Origin: Candidatus Sungiibacteriota bacterium
GTDB taxonomy: Bacteria > Patescibacteriota > Minisyncoccia > Sungbacterales > HO2-52-23
Direction: 5' to 3'
Assembly (NCBI GenBank): GCA_016181585.1
Contig: JACOYX010000008.1
Span: 1-32,059, forward strand
Length of the DNA stretch: 32,059 bases
Shown: piece after piece, positions 5,241 through 31,948 of the stretch
Position numbering within the stretch: position 1 is the stretch's first letter
How the letters are laid out: every line of letters starts with the position of its first letter
The notes under the pieces: generated by a model
What the model saw: only the letters and a program-made list of their open reading frames with translations
Database searches by the model: none
What the model was told of the DNA's origin: nothing
Position numbers and translations under genes: made by a program

Positions 5241-5915
5241 TCATAAACCCTGTGCTTTAAGAACTTTCTCTCTTTCATTACCACACCACTCAGTTCCTTT
5301 CGCATCTAAATCTTCAAGGCTATTCGAGAAGCGCATAACACATTTATAATCTCCAAACAAGCGTGGGCGGATCCCCGCCATAGCGCCCACCATACGCATT
5401 ACTGTTTTTTGTATTCTTTCTTGAACTAAATTACCATCAATATTGGGGTCAAAAACCATCTGTTCGCCTTGAACTTTATATTGAAGATAGAGCGTTGTAA
5501 AAATTCCTACTTTTTTCTTAGTGCTTGAAAATACAAAATTAAGATCTGGGGTAAATAGAGCAAATGGTGTTATTCCGATAATATTTTCAGATTGAGTGTA
5601 GGGCAACTTGTTCAATTCCTGCAAAAGGATAACCGCATTATATTGATTGCGTTCCACATCAAACGCGCCTTGCGGAATATTCATGGTTTCTTCTATTGAA
5701 GTCGTAATGCTGGGGAACTCCTCATTTAGGATTTGCTGTAATTGCTCAACCGAACCAGTTGCTGAGTTACCAACCGGCACTATGTGAATCACATTTATAG
5801 ATTTTACTTTAGAAAAAGGGAAGCCAAATATAGTGAAGTAGCCAACTCCTATGACAAAAGCTAACCCAAGGAAGACTCTTTTGATAGAAAAGGAAGTAAA
5901 AAAATTCGTTTGCAT
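5241..5915 (-). CDS. Membrane-anchored archaemetzincin-like protein (M54) lacking the active site
   Basis: 224 residues. One N-terminal membrane segment (14-32), then an archaemetzincin-type fold: IHIVPVG (43-49), QYNAVILLQEL, IIGITPFALFTPDLNFVF, GIFTTLYLQY and the family signature CVMRFSNSLEDLD (192-204). Active members carry HExxHxxGxxH followed by paired cysteines. Here the aligned stretch reads RMVGAMAGI (174-182), so all three zinc histidines and the catalytic glutamate are gone. The final C-x-x-C is C211-G-N-E. The ORF is intact, so this looks like a retained pseudoenzyme. No SD. The M54 assignment rests on these motifs; the binding role is unknown. Confidence 0.8.
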   Translation of the reverse strand: MQTNFFTSFSIKRVFLGLAFVIGVGYFTIFGFPFSKVKSINVIHIVPVGNSATGSVEQLQQILNEEFPSITTSIEETMNIPQGAFDVERNQYNAVILLQELNKLPYTQSENIIGITPFALFTPDLNFVFSSTKKKVGIFTTLYLQYKVQGEQMVFDPNIDGNLVQERIQKTVMRMVGAMAGIRPRLFGDYKCVMRFSNSLEDLDAKGTEWCGNEREKVLKAQGL

Positions 5916-6268: not shown

Positions 6269-6554
6269 TGGTGCCGAGGGGGAGAATCGAACTCCCTACG
6301 CCAGCCTCTTCCTATTTATTGGACTATATCATCTTCCTTTTTGTAAGGAAGCTAGGCGCTTCCCACCCCATATTTTTACGAGGCAGTACTCCCCAAAGGG
6401 ATAGTCTCTACACCTTTTCCGATAAAATCGGAACTTGGCTCGGGATTATTTCCAGCAATGGAACCTTCCCCGAATTCACCTAGTTGTTCAATCTGCATTA
6501 CTGCAGAAGGCCCCGAAGCATCAGGGCTGCGCTCTACCAATGAGCTACCTCGGC
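6269..6554 (-). tRNA. tRNA-Phe(GAA) interrupted by a group I intron
   Basis: The 5' exon is 6554-6523 (acceptor GCCGAGG, D arm, anticodon stem CAGCC and C32-U33). The 3' exon is 6311-6269 (GAAGA, stem GGCTG, T arm, CCTCGGC, A, encoded CCA). Joined, the anticodon loop is CTGAAGA, anticodon GAA. Position 37 is G rather than the usual A. This is the only tRNA in the window with an encoded CCA. The splice sites are fixed by the P1 and P10 pairings described under the intron. Confidence 0.88.
6312..6522 (-). other. Group I intron in tRNA-Phe, 211 nt, no ORF
   Basis: Inserted between U33 and G34. P1: exon end GCCCU pairs with intron GGGGC, giving the required U-G pair at the 5' splice site. P10: CUUC directly before that guide pairs with 3' exon GAAG. 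The intron ends in G (complement of 6312). The conserved core is visible as AGAGACTAT and, near the 3' end, GATGATATAGTCC. Splicing should be self-catalysed with a guanosine cofactor. No homing endonuclease is present, so it cannot move by itself. Confidence 0.88.
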
Positions 6555-7164: not shown

Positions 7165-7995
7165 TTATCTGAATTCGTACATAATCGTAACGTTCGAAAT
7201 GATTTCCTGCTCGCCCGCGCTCACTTCAGGTGTAGCAACATCCCCGCCGCCCGTCCCGCCACCAATACCCGCCTTCGCGCTATAAGCAAAAATAGGATAC
7301 CCTCCTCCAGACTCGGAGAAACCTGTAATGCGCTTTAATTTTACCCCCATATCGCGAGCAATAGTTTCCGCTTTCATTTTTGCATCTTCAATTGCTTTTT
7401 TCCGCGCTTCGGCGTGCACCGCCTCGGGTTTGTCGAAGGTAAAGTTGATTGAGCCCACTTCATTGGCACCGCTTGAAACTATCCCCTCAAGCAAGTCATC
7501 TACCAAATCCAAATTGCGGATTTTTATTTCGATCGTGTGCCGTACATCGTAGGATGCAATTTCCGGCGTCTTTGCCGAACTGCGCACCGAACAAGGTGCA
7601 CCGGGATAACAAGGCGGTTCGGGATAGGTATACTGCGGATATACGGAATATCCGACTGTTTTTATATCCCTCTCCTCAACGCCTTTGCTTTTCAAAAATG
7701 CCATCACCGCATTTGAGCGCTTGGTATTTTCTGCTTGTGCATCCCCTACTTTCTTAGCCTGCGTAAGAACGCTTGCGTTAAAAAGGGCAATGTCCGGCTT
7801 CACCGCAACTTTGCCTTCGCCGGTAACGCTCAACTGCCGTATCTCCTGCACGCCACGAATGTTTTGCGCAGATACAAAATACCAATACGCAAAAGCAAAC
7901 GAACTCAACACAAGCCCGAGCAAAAGAGGCAAAGTCGCCCACCCAAGATATCGTCTTAATTCGGGCCCATCCGACTGCATTGATGTAAACGCCAT
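7165..7995 (-). CDS. SIMPL domain protein (DUF541), membrane-anchored
   Basis: 276 residues. A membrane segment (about 18-42) is followed by the SIMPL/DUF541 domain (PF04402): the start VTGEGKVAVKPDIALFNASV, then ERDIKTVGYSVYPQY, ASYDVRHTIEIKIRNLDLV and a C-terminal VTIMYEFR. The family forms periplasmic or extracytoplasmic oligomers (BP26 of Brucella is a member). A Pro/Cys-rich insert (YPEPPCYPGAPCSV) and a Gly-rich loop (GIGGGTGGG) interrupt the domain. First gene of a two-gene unit with the DUF2238-like gene. No SD. Confidence 0.85.
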   Translation of the reverse strand: MAFTSMQSDGPELRRYLGWATLPLLLGLVLSSFAFAYWYFVSAQNIRGVQEIRQLSVTGEGKVAVKPDIALFNASVLTQAKKVGDAQAENTKRSNAVMAFLKSKGVEERDIKTVGYSVYPQYTYPEPPCYPGAPCSVRSSAKTPEIASYDVRHTIEIKIRNLDLVDDLLEGIVSSGANEVGSINFTFDKPEAVHAEARKKAIEDAKMKAETIARDMGVKLKRITGFSESGGGYPIFAYSAKAGIGGGTGGGDVATPEVSAGEQEIISNVTIMYEFR

Positions 7996-8287: not shown

Positions 8288-8680
8288 TCAAATATACCAA
8301 AGAATAAACAGTACATAAATTAGAATCGCCGCGAAACCAATGAATAAAACTCCCGCGATTTTTCTATAATAATGCTTTCCATCAGCCTTAGTTTTAAAAA
8401 AATTTTATGCCGCCAAAAATAAAGAGAAAAATGGCCAATAAGAAAGCGGTGATACCCCTGTAGTCTAAGAAAAAAGCCATCCAATAAAAACTAGCACAGT
8501 GAGAGAATAAATGATAAAAACAACGATATGGTCTCCAATAAAATATACAAAAGGGGTGAAAAGCAGAAAAATAGACAGAAATGCAAGCGCCGCAACAATT
8601 CTTATGAGCGTTCTTATTGTAAGGAATTTCTCGGAGCTTGAATCTTGTTGGATTATTTGTGTTGGGAATTTAACTGTAAT
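8288..8680 (-). pseudogene. Membrane protein gene broken by two compensating frameshifts
   Basis: Three consecutive minus-strand pieces in alternating frames form one hydrophobic protein. Piece 1 begins near VKFPTQIIQQ and runs to LVFIGWLFS; piece 2 has FLDYRGITAFLLAIFLFIF; piece 3 has KTKADGKHYYRKIAG and ends VLFILWYI at stop 8288-8290. The breaks are at a 6-T run (one T short) and a 7-T run (one T too many), so net frame is kept: 393 nt, 131 codons. The likely start overlaps the upstream stop as TAATT, where TAATG would be normal. Either a decayed gene or homopolymer errors in the assembly. Family not recognised. Confidence 0.6.
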
Positions 8681-9360
8681 TAATAACCTGATCCCAATTT
8701 CAAATCTTCAAATCTTTTGCCATCTAGGTAGTAACTTGCATATTTCAAAAACCCAACCCAAACAAGAGCCTTTCTTTCATTCTTGTCCTCAACGACCAAA
8801 TAAGTTTTTGAAGGTGCGCCAATGAATCCATCCCCTTCTATTAAAGGCTTGTTACGAAAGTAATTCACTATAACAAATCTTTCATTTTGCGGAATATCAG
8901 ATAGCTGCTTATCTCTGGGGCTTGCATCGCTCCACCAAATTTCACGCCCAACACTCTTAGATATTACACATGATGATGAACGCACAAATGACAGATCCTC
9001 AACGTATACCATGGGCGAATTCCATATGATCTCTGCCCCTTCAAGTGATTGAGGTAAGACGAGCTCTTGTTTCAAATCCGAGCATTTTTGCCCCATAAAG
9101 ATACTAACAAGAACAAGAACCCCTACGCCACCGAAAAGAAAAGCTTTTACAACATAACTTAAGCGTTCTGAGCGTACTAAAATCCACAACACTATCCCAG
9201 AAAATATTCCCGCAACTCCCCAAATAAAAAACTGCAGTCTGCCTGCCACAAATTCCGATGATATTGTAAATCCGAGTCCAGATATAAGAAAACCGGCCAG
9301 CATTAATGGAATCGAAAGTATAAGAAGTAAGTACCTTATGGCATTTTTTGTTGGAGCCAT
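8680..9360 (-). CDS. Membrane protein of unknown function
   Basis: 226 residues. Three membrane segments fill the N-terminal half (about 9-32, 42-62 and 72-90), followed by a soluble domain of about 130 residues with FVIVNYFRNKPLIEGDGF and TYLVVEDKNERKALVWVGFLKY, a beta-rich pattern. Two cysteines (CSDLK and SSSCVI) lie in the soluble part. No family recognised. The stop codon overlaps the presumed start of the broken membrane-protein gene, so the two were probably one operon. Confidence 0.65.
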   Translation of the reverse strand: MAPTKNAIRYLLLILSIPLMLAGFLISGLGFTISSEFVAGRLQFFIWGVAGIFSGIVLWILVRSERLSYVVKAFLFGGVGVLVLVSIFMGQKCSDLKQELVLPQSLEGAEIIWNSPMVYVEDLSFVRSSSCVISKSVGREIWWSDASPRDKQLSDIPQNERFVIVNYFRNKPLIEGDGFIGAPSKTYLVVEDKNERKALVWVGFLKYASYYLDGKRFEDLKLGSGY

Positions 9361-25536: not shown

Positions 25537-25628
25537 CAAAAATCAAAATGTAAAATTAAGGTATTGCGGCTTCGCCATAATATAAAATCTGTCGCGAATC
25601 GACACTATAATTTTGCATTTTGATTTTT
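25537..25628. repeat. AT-arm element between pilX-like gene and ligA
   Basis: Arms 25538-25558 and 25608-25628 are inverted repeats (one mismatch in 21). Cores are ATTGCGGCTTCGCCATAAT and GTCGCGAATCGAC, both self-complementary. The element supplies the TTG-started N-terminal extension of ligA and the end of the pilus cluster. Confidence 0.55.
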
Positions 25629-26047
25629 TAATACGTTACCATAAATCCGCGCTTTACATTGCGCGCAGTATTTGCTCCACAGCGGGGTTGCCCCACGCTT
25701 CTGATGCAAGCGATTGCGGTGGTATTGTTGCAATTGGCGAAAATACTCGCGGGGGTTTTGTACATCTCTACAACAAAGCAGCCGGTAGAGGAAGGGTTGC
25801 CGGTGGTGTCTTCTGTGGCGTTGTTACCAAGTTTTTGAGGCGTCATACGGTCGAGATAAAGAAATTTATCGATTGCGCGATCAGACGCGTAAAATGCGGT
25901 ATATGAATCCGCAATTTCTCCGGAAATCAAAATTTCGCCATAAACCACGTTAAAAATGCCGATGGAGATCGATAAGAGAGCTGAAAGGATAACTATGACT
26001 AAAAGCAGAGTGATCCCTTTCTTCTTTTGTACGAAATAATGTTTCAT
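25628..26047 (-). CDS. PilX/GspK-like pseudopilin
   Basis: 139 residues. A short basic leader MKHYFVQKKKG precedes the hydrophobic helix ITLLLVIVILSALLSISIGI, so cleavage would follow G11; position +5 is L, not the usual E, as in many PilX/GspK proteins. Soluble part has CFVVEMYKTPASIFANC and a C-terminal CGANTARNVKRG. It is shorter than typical PilX. Last of four consecutive pseudopilin genes. Confidence 0.7.
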   Translation of the reverse strand: MKHYFVQKKKGITLLLVIVILSALLSISIGIFNVVYGEILISGEIADSYTAFYASDRAIDKFLYLDRMTPQKLGNNATEDTTGNPSSTGCFVVEMYKTPASIFANCNNTTAIACIRSVGQPRCGANTARNVKRGFMVTY

Positions 26048-26051
26048 AGGA

Positions 26052-26618
26052 TTATTGCAAGTCGCGAGCGCGAGGTACTACTGTTGTTTGAAGATCAAGG
26101 GTTGACTCAAGAGGTATTTTGGGGCTTTTTGCCCGTGCGCGAAGCATTATGGTGATCTGCGGTTGTCCGTCCGCTGCGCCTGCGGGAAGCCCTCGGGTGA
26201 GAAAATTAAACCGGTCGATATATATATCCTCCGCGGTAAAAGGAACTACAATTCCCGAAGAGCCGTTGCAATCGCCGGGAAGAATAGGTTGTGTCGCGCG
26301 CATAATGCGAAGATTTGTCTGGTCCCAAAAATATACTCTGGTGCCAGATGTCGCTTCAAAACGGATCTCAGACCCGGCTTGACCGCACACAGGAGACAAA
26401 ATGCTGAATTGCGTGCCTGTACGCAGTTCTTTTGCCAAAAGTTCCATACTGAAGCGGATATTATCCTGCACTACCTGCGTATTCGCCGCTTTTATTTGGG
26501 CATTTGAAAGGCTCAACATAAGACCGATAGTGGTAATTATGACCACAGTAAAAATGCCGATAGAGATGACCATCTCAAGAAGAGTAAAACCGCGTTGATT
26601 TTTTAGAGAAATTGTCAT
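26052..26618 (-). CDS. PilW/GspJ-like pseudopilin
   Basis: 188 residues. The leader MTISLKNQRG and the helix FTLLEMVISIGIFTVV place the cleavage after G10, with E at +5. Followed by the usual long helix (NTQVVQDNIRFSMELLAKEL) and a beta-rich head. Cysteines at the head (SPVCGQ, PGDCNG) may form a disulphide. The 4-base spacing to the next gene (stop 26052, start 26047) suggests coupled translation. Minor pilins of this kind prime pilus assembly. Confidence 0.8.
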   Translation of the reverse strand: MTISLKNQRGFTLLEMVISIGIFTVVIITTIGLMLSLSNAQIKAANTQVVQDNIRFSMELLAKELRTGTQFSILSPVCGQAGSEIRFEATSGTRVYFWDQTNLRIMRATQPILPGDCNGSSGIVVPFTAEDIYIDRFNFLTRGLPAGAADGQPQITIMLRARAKSPKIPLESTLDLQTTVVPRARDLQ

Positions 26619-26624
26619 GAGCTT

Positions 26625-27239
26625 TTATCTCCAATTATACAATCGCTCGGTGAGGGTTAATGTGCGATTTATTCCCCGCTCATTCCAAGAAATTGTTGCG
26701 GTTACATCCATTATATCTGCAGTAGGAATAGCGGCGCTTCCAGGCGGACCGGATTCTGCGGAAAAAGGACGGGATATATTTAAACAGCGTGAAAACAGCG
26801 TAGGTTGTCCTGAAACATATCCATATCTGCCTGTTGCTGGATCGAAGCGAAGCTTATTTGCGCATCCTGCACTGGGAACAGTCAAGGTGGGATTGCTGAT
26901 AAGGACACCGCTTCCGCACAAATATTGTGTTACCGCAATGGCATCAATGGTTCTTTGGGTGCCGAGAAGCGTTGATCCAGTAATGCCGTTATAATCAGTT
27001 TGCCATGTTTGCAAGGTGCCGGTATTTTTTTCAATACAAATTTGATTATTCTCTCTAATGACGCGTACCAACTCAATCCCCTCTTGCGCGAGATTGATTG
27101 CGATAAGTTTGTTTTTGGCGAAGCTGAAATTATTGATACCGCGGATAATTAGTGAAACCGGCCCCACCAAAGCTCCCAAAATAACCGCAAGCGCCACGAC
27201 GGTTTCAAGGAGGGTAAAACCACGATTTTTTGTGTACAA
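26625..27239 (-). CDS. PilV/GspI-like pseudopilin, TTG start
   Basis: 204 residues from TTG 27239. The longer frame to 27374 adds 45 residues encoded by a dispersed repeat (SGVTPAKAGIQFTGL), which is not part of a pilin leader. From the TTG the leader is MYTKNRG and the helix FTLLETVVALAVILGALVGP, cleavage after G7 with E at +5. The head has CIEKNTGTLQTWQTDYNG, CGSGVLISNPTLTVPSAGC and a C-terminal TATISWNERGINRTLTLTE, typical of PilV/GspI. The start codon lies in a perfect 13-bp hairpin (27220-27249). Confidence 0.78.
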   Translation of the reverse strand: MYTKNRGFTLLETVVALAVILGALVGPVSLIIRGINNFSFAKNKLIAINLAQEGIELVRVIRENNQICIEKNTGTLQTWQTDYNGITGSTLLGTQRTIDAIAVTQYLCGSGVLISNPTLTVPSAGCANKLRFDPATGRYGYVSGQPTLFSRCLNISRPFSAESGPPGSAAIPTADIMDVTATISWNERGINRTLTLTERLYNWR

Positions 27240-27249
27240 AAAATCGTGG

Positions 27250-27375
27250 AATTTAAAATGTAAAATGTAAAAATTAAAATACCGCTCAATGCGTAATCCG
27301 GTGAACTGGATTCCAGCTTTCGCCGGGGTGACGCCCGAAGCGTCATTTTTTATTTTGCTTTTTAAATTTTGCATT
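27250..27375. repeat. AT-arm element with PAKAGIQ-type core
   Basis: AT arms at 27250-27281 and 27346-27375 enclose a core of about 60 bases (27286-27345) with ATTCCAGCTTTCGCCGGGGT. In the minus frame the core encodes VTPAKAGIQ, a well-known repeat-derived peptide in bacterial genomes. A second copy of the core in opposite orientation is at 30479-30540. Confidence 0.7.
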
Positions 27376-27992
27376 TATCGTATGCTTATCTGTCCGCTGG
27401 TGCGGACAGTAACTGTCTTGGTGTCGGCGCCGGAAGGCCTCCCGAAACGGATATTTATTATATCCCCAAGATCGTTTCCGTTTTCGCCGGTAATGGCAAG
27501 CACCGCCTCCGGCGCGGTGAATAGTATATGAATAATGCGAGGACAGTCTGTATAGACGGGAGGCGGAGAGGAATCACGGCATTCAAGTCCGGTAACTTTT
27601 ATGCCGCGCGGAAATATTACGTCGCTTCCTATTTTTACATCATCTCCGGCTCTCCAGCGGCCATCGGGAGCGCCACTGGCGCCAGGACCAAAATCTGCGA
27701 ATATAAAATATCTCTGTGGTTCGTTAAGCGAAATCCTGATTCCCACCGCTTTGGGCACGCGCGGGCCGGTGGGGGTGGATATGCTGGTTACCGCAAGCGA
27801 CATGTTTTGCGCACGCCGCATGGCAAGCGCAATTTCCCTCACTGAACGGTTGAGCGCGGCGCCTTCATTGAGGCCGGAAAAACTGAAAAGTACTACCGCG
27901 CTGATTGCGGTTATAATGGCAAGAATAACGACTATTTCCACCATGGTAAACCCTGCACTACATCTTGATTGAGTTTTTTTCATTTCCTTCAT
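27375..27992 (-). CDS. FimT/GspH-like pseudopilin
   Basis: 205 residues. Leader MKEMKKTQSRCSAG and helix FTMVEIVVILAIITAISAVV, cleavage after G14 and E at +5. A cysteine in the leader is unusual. The head has LALAMRRAQNMSLAV, typical of the GspH/FimT helix, then RVPKAVGIRISLNEP, YFIFADFGPG and a C-terminal KTVTVRTSGQISIR, again typical. First of the four consecutive pseudopilin genes. The element R2 lies just upstream, so a promoter could be inside or next to that repeat. Confidence 0.82.
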   Translation of the reverse strand: MKEMKKTQSRCSAGFTMVEIVVILAIITAISAVVLFSFSGLNEGAALNRSVREIALAMRRAQNMSLAVTSISTPTGPRVPKAVGIRISLNEPQRYFIFADFGPGASGAPDGRWRAGDDVKIGSDVIFPRGIKVTGLECRDSSPPPVYTDCPRIIHILFTAPEAVLAITGENGNDLGDIINIRFGRPSGADTKTVTVRTSGQISIR

Positions 27993-27997
27993 TATGT

Positions 27998-28318
27998 GAC
28001 TGTTGCCGAATACCGCTTATGAGCTGCAATTCCGTAAATTCGGGTAAATCGCATCGCGATTTACGGGAAATTTAGCGAAGCCGGATATTCCCGTGCGAAG
28101 CGTAAAATTTCCCCGGCTTTTGCTCAAGGAAGCAAAAGAATTTTTCAAAAAAATTCTTGGCTTATCATTGGCAGGGAGATGAATGTAAAAGCATACTTTT
28201 ACATTCACCGGGTGAACCGATTATACTCATAGTATCTATCTAGATAGGCCGCAAAATTTGTGTGAGTATTTGCTTCGAATTCATGCAACTTCGCGACGTA
28301 GGCTATTCGGCAACAGTC
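27998..28318. repeat. 321-bp inverted-repeat element R2
   Basis: Ends are 15-bp perfect inverted repeats, GACTGTTGCCGAATA (27998-28012) and its complement (28304-28318). Inside are a CGTAAATTCGGG/CGATTTACGGG region and module B (28159-28218), shared with R1. The segment 28241-28300 (TAGGCCGCAAAATTTGTG) also resembles the start of R3. A 63-residue frame inside is repeat-derived and not accepted as a gene. It fills the gap between the DUF4430-like and FimT-like genes. Confidence 0.7.
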
Positions 28319-28344
28319 CCATTATATATCTTTTTTTATAAATC

Positions 28345-28373
28345 AAAAAGCCGCCAGTATTACTGACAGCTTT
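28345..28373 (-). terminator. Terminator behind the DUF4430-like gene
   Basis: AAAGCTGTCAGTA pairs with TACTGGCGGCTTT on the minus strand (G-U pairs allowed), followed by TTTTTGATT. It separates the pilC-pilD part from the four pseudopilins. Confidence 0.6.
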
Positions 28374-28377
28374 CTTT

Positions 28378-28833
28378 TTATTCGTATTTAAATACATAGT
28401 GATCGCCGCGGCTCACTATGAATCGGGAAAGAGGTCCTGCTACCCCCTCTTCTCCTTTGTACAATTGCCACTGCTTGGTTTTGTTTTTGGTGCGGTCAAA
28501 CTCTACGAGCATATCGTTTTGCACGCGAAGCGGTGTTCCTGTGTCTTTTGCGAGTGCTTCAAGTTCTTCAGCCAGAGAGCGAGGGGGTTGGGCTGCCACA
28601 CCTTCAAATTTCCGCATATCGGTACCTGAATCAAAGACAATCCATATGCGTTGATCGCGGGGAATTACCATGTTTTCCAATGAGGCGTTGTTTGAGGAAA
28701 TCTCATTTGAGAAACTTTTTTGCATGTATGAAATAACGCCGGCGGCAATCAAAAAGGCACCGGCGACGATTAGCCAAGTCTCCTGTGGGCTACATTCCGT
28801 AGTTATTTTTTTCTTTCTGGGGCGCATAGGCAT
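28378..28833 (-). CDS. Membrane-anchored DUF4430-like protein
   Basis: 151 residues. A basic start (MPMRPRKKKITTE) and one membrane segment (about 20-36) place the C-terminal part outside. That part has KFEGVAAQPPRSLAEELEAL followed by AKDTGTPLRV, then KQWQLYKGEEGVAGPLSRFI and a final SRGDHYVFKYE. The pattern FEGV--PPR-L---LE-LA and -W-LY--GE------GD-Y-F-Y fits DUF4430 (PF14478), a ligand-binding surface domain related to the cobalamin-intrinsic-factor family. It sits between pilD and the pseudopilins and could be a pilus-linked surface protein (inference). Confidence 0.6.
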   Translation of the reverse strand: MPMRPRKKKITTECSPQETWLIVAGAFLIAAGVISYMQKSFSNEISSNNASLENMVIPRDQRIWIVFDSGTDMRKFEGVAAQPPRSLAEELEALAKDTGTPLRVQNDMLVEFDRTKNKTKQWQLYKGEEGVAGPLSRFIVSRGDHYVFKYE

Positions 28834-28857
28834 GTTTGAAAAGTAAAAATGAAAAAA

Positions 28858-28935
28858 TAGGTAGGCCGCAAAATTTATTCAACGATTTTGGCGCGAATTG
28901 AAATCTCGTAACGAAAATCTTTAATCAGTGGGTCT
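28858..28935. repeat. Partial interspersed element R3 (module A)
   Basis: GGCCGCAAAATTTATTCAAC... to ...AACGAAAATCTTTAATCAG matches module A of R1 (18149-18226, opposite orientation) over about 75 bases with substitutions; the outer end GTGGGTCT corresponds to R1's GTAGGTCT. Only one half is present. Confidence 0.6.
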
Positions 28936-28944
28936 TATTTTAAT

Positions 28945-29760
28945 TTATATCAAGAGGCACATTATGGGATAGTCAATGCAGGTTATAAAAGGAGTCAGGA
29001 AATACGCAATGATGCTCGCGATGATGATAAACGGGCCGAAAGGGATAAGACTTTTTACCCCTGCCTTAGCAAAAACCATAAGAGCAATGCTTACCGCCGC
29101 TCCAAGCCAAAAAGCGAAAATAAATGCGATAAGAGATGCGGGAAAGCCAAGAATCAATGATGTGGCAAGTATCAATTTGGCATCCCCAAGACCCATCCAC
29201 GTCCCGCGGGAAAAAAACCACAAGGAAGTAAAGAAGCCGGAAATCAAAAGTGCCGCTATCCAATCAATTATAAAAGAATTTTGAAAAGCAATCGGTGTAA
29301 TTATTATATCACTTCGCACTGCTGTTGCAACAATACCGAGCAGAAAAAGAATAATGACCGTATAATCCGGAATAATGGTATAGCGAAGATCGTAGACAAA
29401 AGCTACCACAGCCGCCGAAACTCCTATCCCGAGGAGAGTAAAGATTCCCAATGAACGAGCATCAAAAGCAAATTGCGGCAGAAAGAGGACAAAGACGATA
29501 ATAAAAAGTGCGGCAGTGGTAAATTCGACAATCGGATACTGCCAAGAAAGGGCGATACCGCATGTTCGGCATCGCCCTTTTTGGATAAGGAAACTTATGA
29601 CAGGAATTAATTCGATGGGAGAAAGATGTTTTTTACAGCCGCGGCAGGAAGACCGGCCAAAGAGCGATTTTTTAACTGATTTTCGCAGAATCAATACGTT
29701 GAGGAAGCTTCCGATCGTAAGACCAAATAATGCGATGATAACGAGAATAAGTGCATTCAC
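28945..29760 (-). CDS. pilD: Prepilin leader peptidase / N-methyltransferase
   Basis: 271 residues. It cleaves the pilin leaders at G|F and methylates the new N-terminus. The N-terminal domain has the zinc cysteines C39-R-G-C42 and C64-R-T-C67 with FLIQKGRCRTCG and PIVEF. The aspartic protease residues are D124 in VYDLRYTIIPDYTV and D193 in MGLGDAKL. About eight membrane segments. The substrates are the pilin and pseudopilins encoded on both sides. No SD. Confidence 0.95.
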   Translation of the reverse strand: MNALILVIIALFGLTIGSFLNVLILRKSVKKSLFGRSSCRGCKKHLSPIELIPVISFLIQKGRCRTCGIALSWQYPIVEFTTAALFIIVFVLFLPQFAFDARSLGIFTLLGIGVSAAVVAFVYDLRYTIIPDYTVIILFLLGIVATAVRSDIIITPIAFQNSFIIDWIAALLISGFFTSLWFFSRGTWMGLGDAKLILATSLILGFPASLIAFIFAFWLGAAVSIALMVFAKAGVKSLIPFGPFIIIASIIAYFLTPFITCIDYPIMCLLI

Positions 29761-29775
29761 ATGAAATATACTTAT

Positions 29776-30336
29776 TTAAGGGACGGCGTCATAGCAAGTT
29801 TCTGTGCCACCCGGTTGTGCGGTTCCTGCCGTGGTAGAACAAGCGGTGCCTTCCGCGGATGCAGAAAGACCGCTAAAATCATTGGTCCATCCTGCGGTAA
29901 CAACCATATCTCGATCTCCGGTCAATGCGCCATTGGTTATATCTGAGAGCGTAGTGCCGAGATGATAAGTTGTTCGCGCACCGCTGGTGAGCGCCGCATA
30001 TTTATAGCAGTTTGTAGTTACGGTGCCAGTAGGATCTCTTGGTACCTGCGGAATATAGTTTGCGGCGGAAAGCGCCTCCAGTCCATAGGCAACAGTCGCA
30101 CTACAGGTTATACTAGCGGCTGGATACTGTCCTGTTCCCGCGCCATCGTAGTAGAGCTCAAGCGCCAATTGGATTTGCTTGATATCGGTAATACGGCGCG
30201 CGTCACGCGATTTTTGGCGCGCGGTATTGAGCGACGCCAAAACAATGGATGCCAAGACGCCAATGATGGCGATAACGACCAAAAGCTCAATCAGGGTGAA
30301 ACCGGCTTTTGCTTTGCTTTTCAAAAATGTGCTCAT
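29776..30336 (-). CDS. Type IV major pilin-like protein
   Basis: 186 residues. Leader MSTFLKSKAKAG, then FTLIELLVVIAIIGVLASIV, the classic class III signal with cleavage after G12 and E at +5. The helix continues ARQKSRDARRITDIKQIQLALELYYD as in PulG/PilE. The head has cysteines in ITCSAT, TTNCYKY and a pair near the C-terminus (EGTACSTT...TETCYDAVP) and ends with a D-loop-like stretch. It is preceded by an AT-rich promoter candidate and separated from pilC, so it can be highly expressed. Confidence 0.9.
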   Translation of the reverse strand: MSTFLKSKAKAGFTLIELLVVIAIIGVLASIVLASLNTARQKSRDARRITDIKQIQLALELYYDGAGTGQYPAASITCSATVAYGLEALSAANYIPQVPRDPTGTVTTNCYKYAALTSGARTTYHLGTTLSDITNGALTGDRDMVVTAGWTNDFSGLSASAEGTACSTTAGTAQPGGTETCYDAVP

Positions 30337-30359
30337 AGATTAATTTAATTTTATTAATT

Positions 30360-30365
30360 ATTATA
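30360..30365 (-). promoter_or_regulatory. Candidate -10 of the pilin gene
   Basis: Minus-strand TATAAT, 24 bases from the pilin ATG. The -35 side (TTTCCA region) is weak. Confidence 0.45.
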
Positions 30366-30465
30366 ATTTGAAATTTTGTTTGGAAACTGAATACGAACTA
30401 TCTCGACCTTTCCTTATTTTATGGGAACGCAGGCTTTAAGTAAAATCCAAGTTATCCACAATATA

Positions 30466-30575
30466 AGAAATGAAAAATGACGCTTCTGGCATCATCCCAG
30501 CGAAAGCTGGAACCCAATTCACCGGATAACGCATTGCGGGATACTGTAATTTTGATATTTACATTTTTCATTTAG
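30466..30575. repeat. AT-arm element with PAKAGIQ-type core, second copy
   Basis: The core 30479-30540 is the reverse complement of the core at 27286-27345, with CCAGCGAAAGCTGGAACCCA and CGGATAACGCATTG. Arms GAAATGAAAAATGA and ATTTACATTTTTCATTT flank it. It fills the gap between pilin and pilC. Confidence 0.68.
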
Positions 30576-31774
30576 AATGATCCCACCAGGTTATAAAGCG
30601 GTACCATCACTGAAGCGACCAAAACCCCCACTCCCACACCGAGAAATATAATAAGTGCGGGTTCAATCAAAGCAACCAAGTTTTCAAACGCAGAATCTAC
30701 TTCCCGCTGGTAAAATCTGGCGATACTTCCCAAAATATAGTCCAATCTGCCAGATGCCTCCCCTATCCGTATCATTTGGGTGACAAGCGGCGGTATTTCG
30801 GAAGATCGCTCAAATGCCGATGATATGGAATTTCCTCCTTTCACCGATTCTATCGCATCGTAAATCACTTTTTTATAAATCACATTACCAACCACGTCTC
30901 CACTGATAGAAAGCGAGCGTAAAATCGGAATACCTCCGGCGATGAGTGTGTGTAAGTTGTCTGCAAACCGCGCCATATAGAGCTTGCGGTAGAGGACTCC
31001 GACAATCGGAATATGAAGCTGGAGCCGGTGAAAGTATTCTCTGCCGACTTCGGTGCGCGACCAGCGCCATAGTGCCAGCGACCCTCCTACTATAGCAAAG
31101 ATAAGCAAAAGTCCCCAGTGTCTCAAAAAGTCGGATATTAAAATAACAATTTGCGTATAGAGCGGAACCTCCTGTCCTGTTTCCTCAAAAATTGTTGTAA
31201 GGCGGGGTATAACGACCACGAGCATGACGACAATAACGCCGATAAACGCCGCCATAATAAATGCGGGATAAATCATGGCATTGCGTGCTTTGGTGAAAAG
31301 ATAGTAGGATCGTTCGAGATAGTCCGCAAGATATGTAAATACTTCCTGTAATTTTCCGGATTCTTCGCCGGATTTCACTAGGCTTATATAAAAAGAAGAA
31401 AAAATATTGGGGTGTTTGGAAAGCGCTTGCGAAAGCGAAAGCCCGCCGGATACGTCGTCAAGAATGGTGGCGAGCGCATCGCGAAGCGCCGGACGGTCCG
31501 CTTCGGCGGCAAGAGTTTTTAATGCCTCGACTATGGGAATCTGCGCTTCAAACAAGGTGGAAAGCTGGCGTGATAGCATGACTACGTCTTTGTTGGAGAC
31601 GTGCGATCCTAACTTTTTTTCGATAAATGACGCCTTTGTTACTTCGCGAATAGATATAACGATAAGATTTTGTTGGTGCAACAAATCTACCACGGCATCG
31701 TTGGATGATGTTTCCATTACGCCGGACCGCAATTCTCCGGTTTTAGTGCGTGCTTGATATTGGAAGGTGGCCAC
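30572..31774 (-). CDS. pilC: Type IV pilus inner-membrane platform protein
   Basis: 400 residues from GTG 31774; a TTG seven codons upstream lies in a repeat arm. PilC anchors the assembly motor in the membrane. It has two T2SSF (GspF) domains: one around LSRQLSTLFEAQIPIVEALK and SGGLSLSQALSKHPNIFSS (cytoplasmic 60-160), membrane helices near 165-190 and 210-235, a second around ARFADNLHTLIAGGIPILRS and GEASGRLDYILGSIARFYQ, and a last membrane helix ALIIFLGVGVGVLVASVMVP. Its usual partners pilB and pilT are not in the window and may lie to the right. No SD. Confidence 0.93.
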   Translation of the reverse strand: MATFQYQARTKTGELRSGVMETSSNDAVVDLLHQQNLIVISIREVTKASFIEKKLGSHVSNKDVVMLSRQLSTLFEAQIPIVEALKTLAAEADRPALRDALATILDDVSGGLSLSQALSKHPNIFSSFYISLVKSGEESGKLQEVFTYLADYLERSYYLFTKARNAMIYPAFIMAAFIGVIVVMLVVVIPRLTTIFEETGQEVPLYTQIVILISDFLRHWGLLLIFAIVGGSLALWRWSRTEVGREYFHRLQLHIPIVGVLYRKLYMARFADNLHTLIAGGIPILRSLSISGDVVGNVIYKKVIYDAIESVKGGNSISSAFERSSEIPPLVTQMIRIGEASGRLDYILGSIARFYQREVDSAFENLVALIEPALIIFLGVGVGVLVASVMVPLYNLVGSF

Positions 31775-31785
31775 AAAAAGAAATA

Positions 31786-31948
31786 AAAAATGCAAATATC
31801 AAAATGAAAAAAAATGGTATCCATCCCGCCCGCCGCGGCGGGCGGGATGGATATAAATACATACTTTCCGGCTTACCGGAATACTTTAATTTTTTATTTT
31901 GCCTAGCCTGCTCATTGCAGGCGGTTTAAAAATATTTGTATTTTGATG
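31786..31948. repeat. AT-arm element with 36-bp palindrome core
   Basis: AT arms (GCAAATATCAAAATGAAAA at 31792 and TATTTGTATTTTGATG at 31933) enclose a perfect 36-bp palindrome (31818-31853, centred on CCGCGG), the hairpin TTCCGG-CTTA-CCGGAA and the inverted GCCTGCTCATTGCAGGC. It lies upstream of pilC. Confidence 0.62.

Follow-up and report, generated by a model that had tools for sequence, protein, structure and literature searches.

A membrane-anchored archaemetzincin homologue that has lost its metal sites in a genome of Candidatus Sungiibacteriota

The window, a stretch of 32,059 nucleotides from a Candidatus Sungiibacteriota contig, encodes an archaemetzincin (M54) homologue, P0001, in which the catalytic zinc site is erased and only two of the four structural cysteines are left, and which carries an N-terminal hydrophobic anchor (Table 1). 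On balance we favour the reading that P0001 is a single-pass membrane protein whose exported archaemetzincin fold, devoid of both metal sites, binds a peptide or protein instead of cutting it.

Table 1 Features of the zinc-less archaemetzincin-like gene and its upstream neighbours.
Feature	Position	Strand	Basis or remark
Zinc-less archaemetzincin-like protein P0001, 224 aa	5241..5915	-	Profile, phmmer, AlphaFold2, Foldseek
N-terminal hydrophobic anchor, residues 14-32, after K12 R13	5820..5876	-	Hydropathy 2.18 over 19 residues
Residues 174-184, RMVGAMAGIRP: erased zinc helix with the third ligand	5364..5396	-	Alignment; archaemetzincins have HExxHxxGxxH
C192, cysteine kept ahead of the Met-turn	5340..5342	-	Present in 5/5 zinc-less members
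M194, Met-turn methionine, kept	5334..5336	-	Alignment
C211, kept cysteine; CxxC partner is E214	5283..5285	-	C211 kept and partner lost in 5/5 zinc-less members
tRNA-Phe(GAA) interrupted by a group I intron	6269-6554	-	ARAGORN, Rfam
DUF2238-like small membrane protein (weak likeness), upstream of and co-oriented with P0001	6589..7161	-	
SIMPL protein	7165-7995	-	Profile match

P0001 is a true archaemetzincin homologue. Its frame is free of internal stops over all 224 codons, as the first-pass annotation of this DNA had stated; it starts with ATG and carries a coding signal of 0.17 bits per codon (at most 0.03 in the other five frames). The M54 family profile PF07998 matched at 8.7e-9 (36.1 bits, cut-off 24.4) and the NCBIfam archmetzin model at 8.4e-23 (81 bits, under its curated cut-off of 145), and phmmer matched P0001 to the PDB archaemetzincins 4axq, 3zvs and 2x7m at about 2e-7. 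These matches bear out the M54 membership that had been proposed from the letters, for which a search against PF07998 had been suggested as the check and the lack of any significant match as the counter-evidence. P0001 is also the single M54 match in the whole source assembly, which is 86% complete. The gene is AT-rich, with a GC3 of 0.34 vs about 0.48 in its neighbours; another ORF of the window (8680-9360) is similarly AT-rich (GC3 0.33).

In an alignment with intact members from the same phylum, other residues take the place of the three zinc histidines and of the catalytic Glu in P0001 (canonical VHEIGHVLGLKH vs MRMVGAMAGIRP in P0001). The zinc site had been described as wholly erased, which proved correct, and the losses extend to the structural cysteines, two of which are present (C192 and C211) and two of which are lost (columns 187 and 214). 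The Met-turn methionine is retained, as are R167, K170, G177, FSNS at 196-199, D204 and K206. Since H44 is the only histidine in P0001, a three-histidine catalytic zinc site is impossible, and judging from its sequence P0001 cannot be a metalloprotease of the known type. Because HExxH and two of the cysteines are missing, we class P0001 as a homologue with its defining sites lost and not as an M54 peptidase. Annotation pipelines are likely to call it a protease, and the case is a caution for them.

The fold, which had been claimed to be kept, was assessed by structure prediction and comparison with solved archaemetzincins. An AlphaFold2 model guided by an alignment of 78 canonical homologues reached a pLDDT of 86.7 (above 90 across most of the domain), with a helix spanning residues 161-179. 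This alignment-guided model has the archaemetzincin fold: Foldseek placed it on AmzA of A. fulgidus (3zvs_A; TM 0.91 by target length, rmsd 1.9, E 6e-15) and also on AmzA of M. kandleri (E 5e-15), in agreement with the claim. An AlphaFold model built without an alignment was poor (pLDDT 37), so the fold of P0001 rests on homology together with the alignment-guided model. P0001 thus shares sequence family, predicted fold, Met-turn and conserved structural residues with the archaemetzincins (MEROPS M54; AmzA of Methanopyrus kandleri and Archaeoglobus fulgidus, human AMZ1/AMZ2); unlike canonical M54 members, it is anchored, has lost the catalytic zinc ligands and Glu, and has its Cys4 site reduced to two cysteines.

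The N-terminal anchor was likewise correctly recognised in the first reading, and a hydrophobic segment at this place is found in all zinc-less members described below (checked in L026, L027 and L111, and taken for L110 from its likeness to L027). None of the canonical M54 members examined has a convincing anchor; in two of 80 (L037, L090) a segment exceeded the threshold for hydropathy but was not anchor-like. By the positive-inside rule we infer that the N-terminus would lie inside and the C-terminus outside, a weak inference because K36 and K38 come after the anchor. The Cys4 site is needed for archaemetzincin stability, and other metzincins place disulfides there (PMC3427221). That just two of the cysteines are retained, in a putatively exported domain, suggests that a C192-C211 disulfide would stand in for the Cys4 zinc knuckle.

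An exported domain of this kind, without either metal site, would no longer cut, and its old substrate cleft or surface may have been turned into a binding site for a peptide or protein on the outer side of the cytoplasmic membrane, as in the pseudo-ADAMs. Those proteins (ADAM11/22/23) are membrane-anchored metzincin domains that, like P0001, have lost the zinc ligands and retained the Met-turn, and they work as receptors (PMC11266112). They differ from P0001 in belonging to metzincin family M12 and in being eukaryotic and multidomain; the likeness is one of mode, not of descent.

A non-proteolytic, protein-binding archaemetzincin is already known in CarG of Myxococcus xanthus (NCBIfam Myxo_non_zincin; PMC3427221, PMC9304148), and P0001 could in principle be a cytoplasmic regulatory subunit of the CarG type, its N-terminal segment being a mere tether or a misassigned start. 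The CarG equivalog model NF033824 does match P0001 at 1.6e-16, but the score of 60.5 bits lies far under the cut-off of 250, and archmetzin scores higher (81 vs 60 bits, both below cut-off). CarG moreover keeps its zinc ligands and remains zinc-associated, with only the catalytic Glu changed to Gln, requires all four cysteines and works with CarD on transcription, whereas P0001 has lost all ligands. The presence of the N-terminal hydrophobic segment in five of five zinc-less members also counts against a CarG-like subunit, which we consider unlikely.

Membrane-anchored zinc-less M54 domains occur in two further lineages (four genomes) of the same class. A profile search over 384 class genomes yielded two true relatives, and a search within the order of one of these added two congeners. 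L026 (G589) is an anchored protein of 241 aa whose zinc site reads RTLGVTVGFSLS; it scores 25.9 bits with PF07998, over the cut-off, and 1.3e-18 with archmetzin. L027, L110 and L111 (G346, G872 and G768, respectively) belong to one genus and are anchored, with ORFs of 467-510 aa in which an extra middle domain is followed by an M54-like domain at the C-terminus, with HALGTSVGFSLS or a similar sequence; for L027 the archmetzin match is 6e-13. The middle domain of these long proteins (L027, 679-2082) is matched by no Pfam family and appears LolA/LppX-like by eye.

The same two cysteines are kept and the other two absent in all five zinc-less members, and Leu stands at position 203 in all five vs about 1% of 79 canonical rows. 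Residues common to the five are few and include Q91, R167, K170, G177, G181, D204 and the two cysteines. It would be highly improbable for P0001 to be a catalytic domain with another chemistry or another metal site: the high degree to which the G346 genus conserves the domain would suit such a role, but P0001 has one His and two Cys only, and the residues common to all five form no evident new site.

Intact sites prevail elsewhere in the family. HExxH is present in 80 of 80 M54 proteins from GTDB contigs, a set collected via the C[VP]M motif and therefore one that proteins without this motif would escape. P0001 used alone as a query gave no match in the GTDB contigs, no relatives of it were found in viral contigs, phages and plasmids, and 22 other genomes of the order yielded no M54 match by profile search or with P0001 as query. 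Close relatives with an intact HExxH, which the first-pass annotation had named as the mark of simple decay, were looked for in the family and the order and did not appear.

Several other matches were set aside. Seventeen weaker PF07998 matches in the phylum (L007-L023) have an intact HExxH, look by sequence to be other zincins and were not counted as relatives. Among these, L007-L010, L013, L015, L017-L020, L022 and L023, from several genomes, are zincins of about 250 aa that carry an anchor at the N-terminus and have intact HEFGHQLGL-like sites; they apparently form a separate family. L112 (G814, 1123-1776) has an intact zinc site and a signal-like N-terminus, and adjoins a gene that is topoisomerase VI subunit B-like by eye; its contig is probably archaeal contamination. 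L118 sits within an apparent kinase gene and is a chance match.

Selection on the zinc-less domain was analysed in the G346 genus. Between G346 and G872 the domain is identical at 159 of 196 positions, with a dN/dS of 0.084 (NG86) or 0.093 (YN00) and a dS of 1.1-1.3. Against G768, 107 of 196 positions are identical in this domain vs 64 of 222 in the middle domain. The low dN/dS and the better conservation than in the middle domain indicate that the zinc-less domain is maintained in this genus. Examination of orthologues and their dN/dS, which had been put forward as a check, therefore returned a low ratio (about 0.09) in one genus and no close orthologue of P0001. The claim of a retained role rather than decay is accordingly supported for the group, through two other lineages and purifying selection in one genus, and applies indirectly to the copy in the window. 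P0001 is 18-24% identical to its zinc-less relatives, and these, the source of most of the selection evidence, may have lost zinc independently of it. As the relatives share its architecture and are kept by selection, P0001 would by analogy probably function as a binding module rather than a cutting enzyme. The "binding or regulatory" role of the earlier proposal is a putative one, and neither a partner of P0001 nor a conserved operon was found.

Recent decay, in which the catalytic site was lost lately and the gene is drifting to a pseudogene with its open frame left over, is a further alternative. P0001 is without a close orthologue; its long branch (1.6-1.7 changes per site) and low GC3 would both fit relaxed constraint, and 10 of the 31 near-invariant non-ligand positions are lost as well. 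Nevertheless, the 224 codons are open, the structural residues are kept and the losses are concentrated at the metal ligands (21/31 near-invariant non-ligand positions kept vs 2/8 metal-ligand positions; Fisher p 0.045). When neutral drift was simulated to 33% identity, about five stops arose on average and none of 200 runs stayed stop-free, a result that bounds neutral time over the entire branch and not the time since zinc loss; neither this simulation nor the skew in ligand losses dates the loss of zinc in P0001. As four ligands and two cysteines have changed along with residues of the second shell, the loss is not very recent, and similar anchored zinc-less proteins persist elsewhere under purifying selection. 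We therefore regard recent decay as improbable and retain the binding role as the preferred reading.

In trees computed without the ligand columns, P0001 was placed apart from the other four members, and no bootstrap tree of the careful analysis united them; a single zinc-less clade was not rejected (AU p 0.55 and 0.20). We tentatively raise the possibility, which is rather doubtful at present, that zinc-less anchored archaemetzincins arose at least twice in this class of ultra-small bacteria, each time with loss of the same two cysteines and gain of an anchor, to become extracytoplasmic binding proteins. If true, this repeated origin would give bacteria a counterpart of the pseudo-ADAM receptors.

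To our knowledge, archaemetzincins are poorly understood even when intact. A conserved domain without both metal sites implies that the archaemetzincin fold has a use besides cutting. It also draws attention to a component of the envelope that has gone unstudied in Patescibacteria, whose contacts with other cells are largely unknown. No paper treating archaemetzincins and Patescibacteria together was found in the literature searched, which was covered in part, and M54 is absent from a 2024 review of metallopeptidase pseudoenzymes.

On the minus strand, P0001 is preceded by genes for the SIMPL protein, the DUF2238-like membrane protein, the intron-bearing tRNA-Phe and a tRNA-Gly, in this order, and infB and rbfA are convergent with it. 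Scanning the surroundings of the gene for promoters and terminators yielded nothing beyond chance. In the G346 genus, too, a DUF2238-like gene precedes the zinc-less gene, two genes upstream. We rejected this protein as a co-occurring partner: its family is present in 170 of the 384 class genomes (44%, profile search) and is so common that its co-presence with the zinc-less protein is uninformative. The closeness of the two genes in two of three lineages, noticed post hoc, leaves it as a weak lead. The tRNA-Phe intron comprises 211 bases (about 6312-6522), seems to sit between U33 and G34 and is matched by Rfam RF00028 at 6301-6532 with 52 bits; ARAGORN overlooks the interrupted tRNA when run without its intron option. 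Elsewhere in the window, a type IV pilus-like cluster occupies 25628-31795 on the minus strand, with pseudopilins bearing N-methylation signatures, a prepilin peptidase-like protein and a PilC-like protein, identified mostly by eye.
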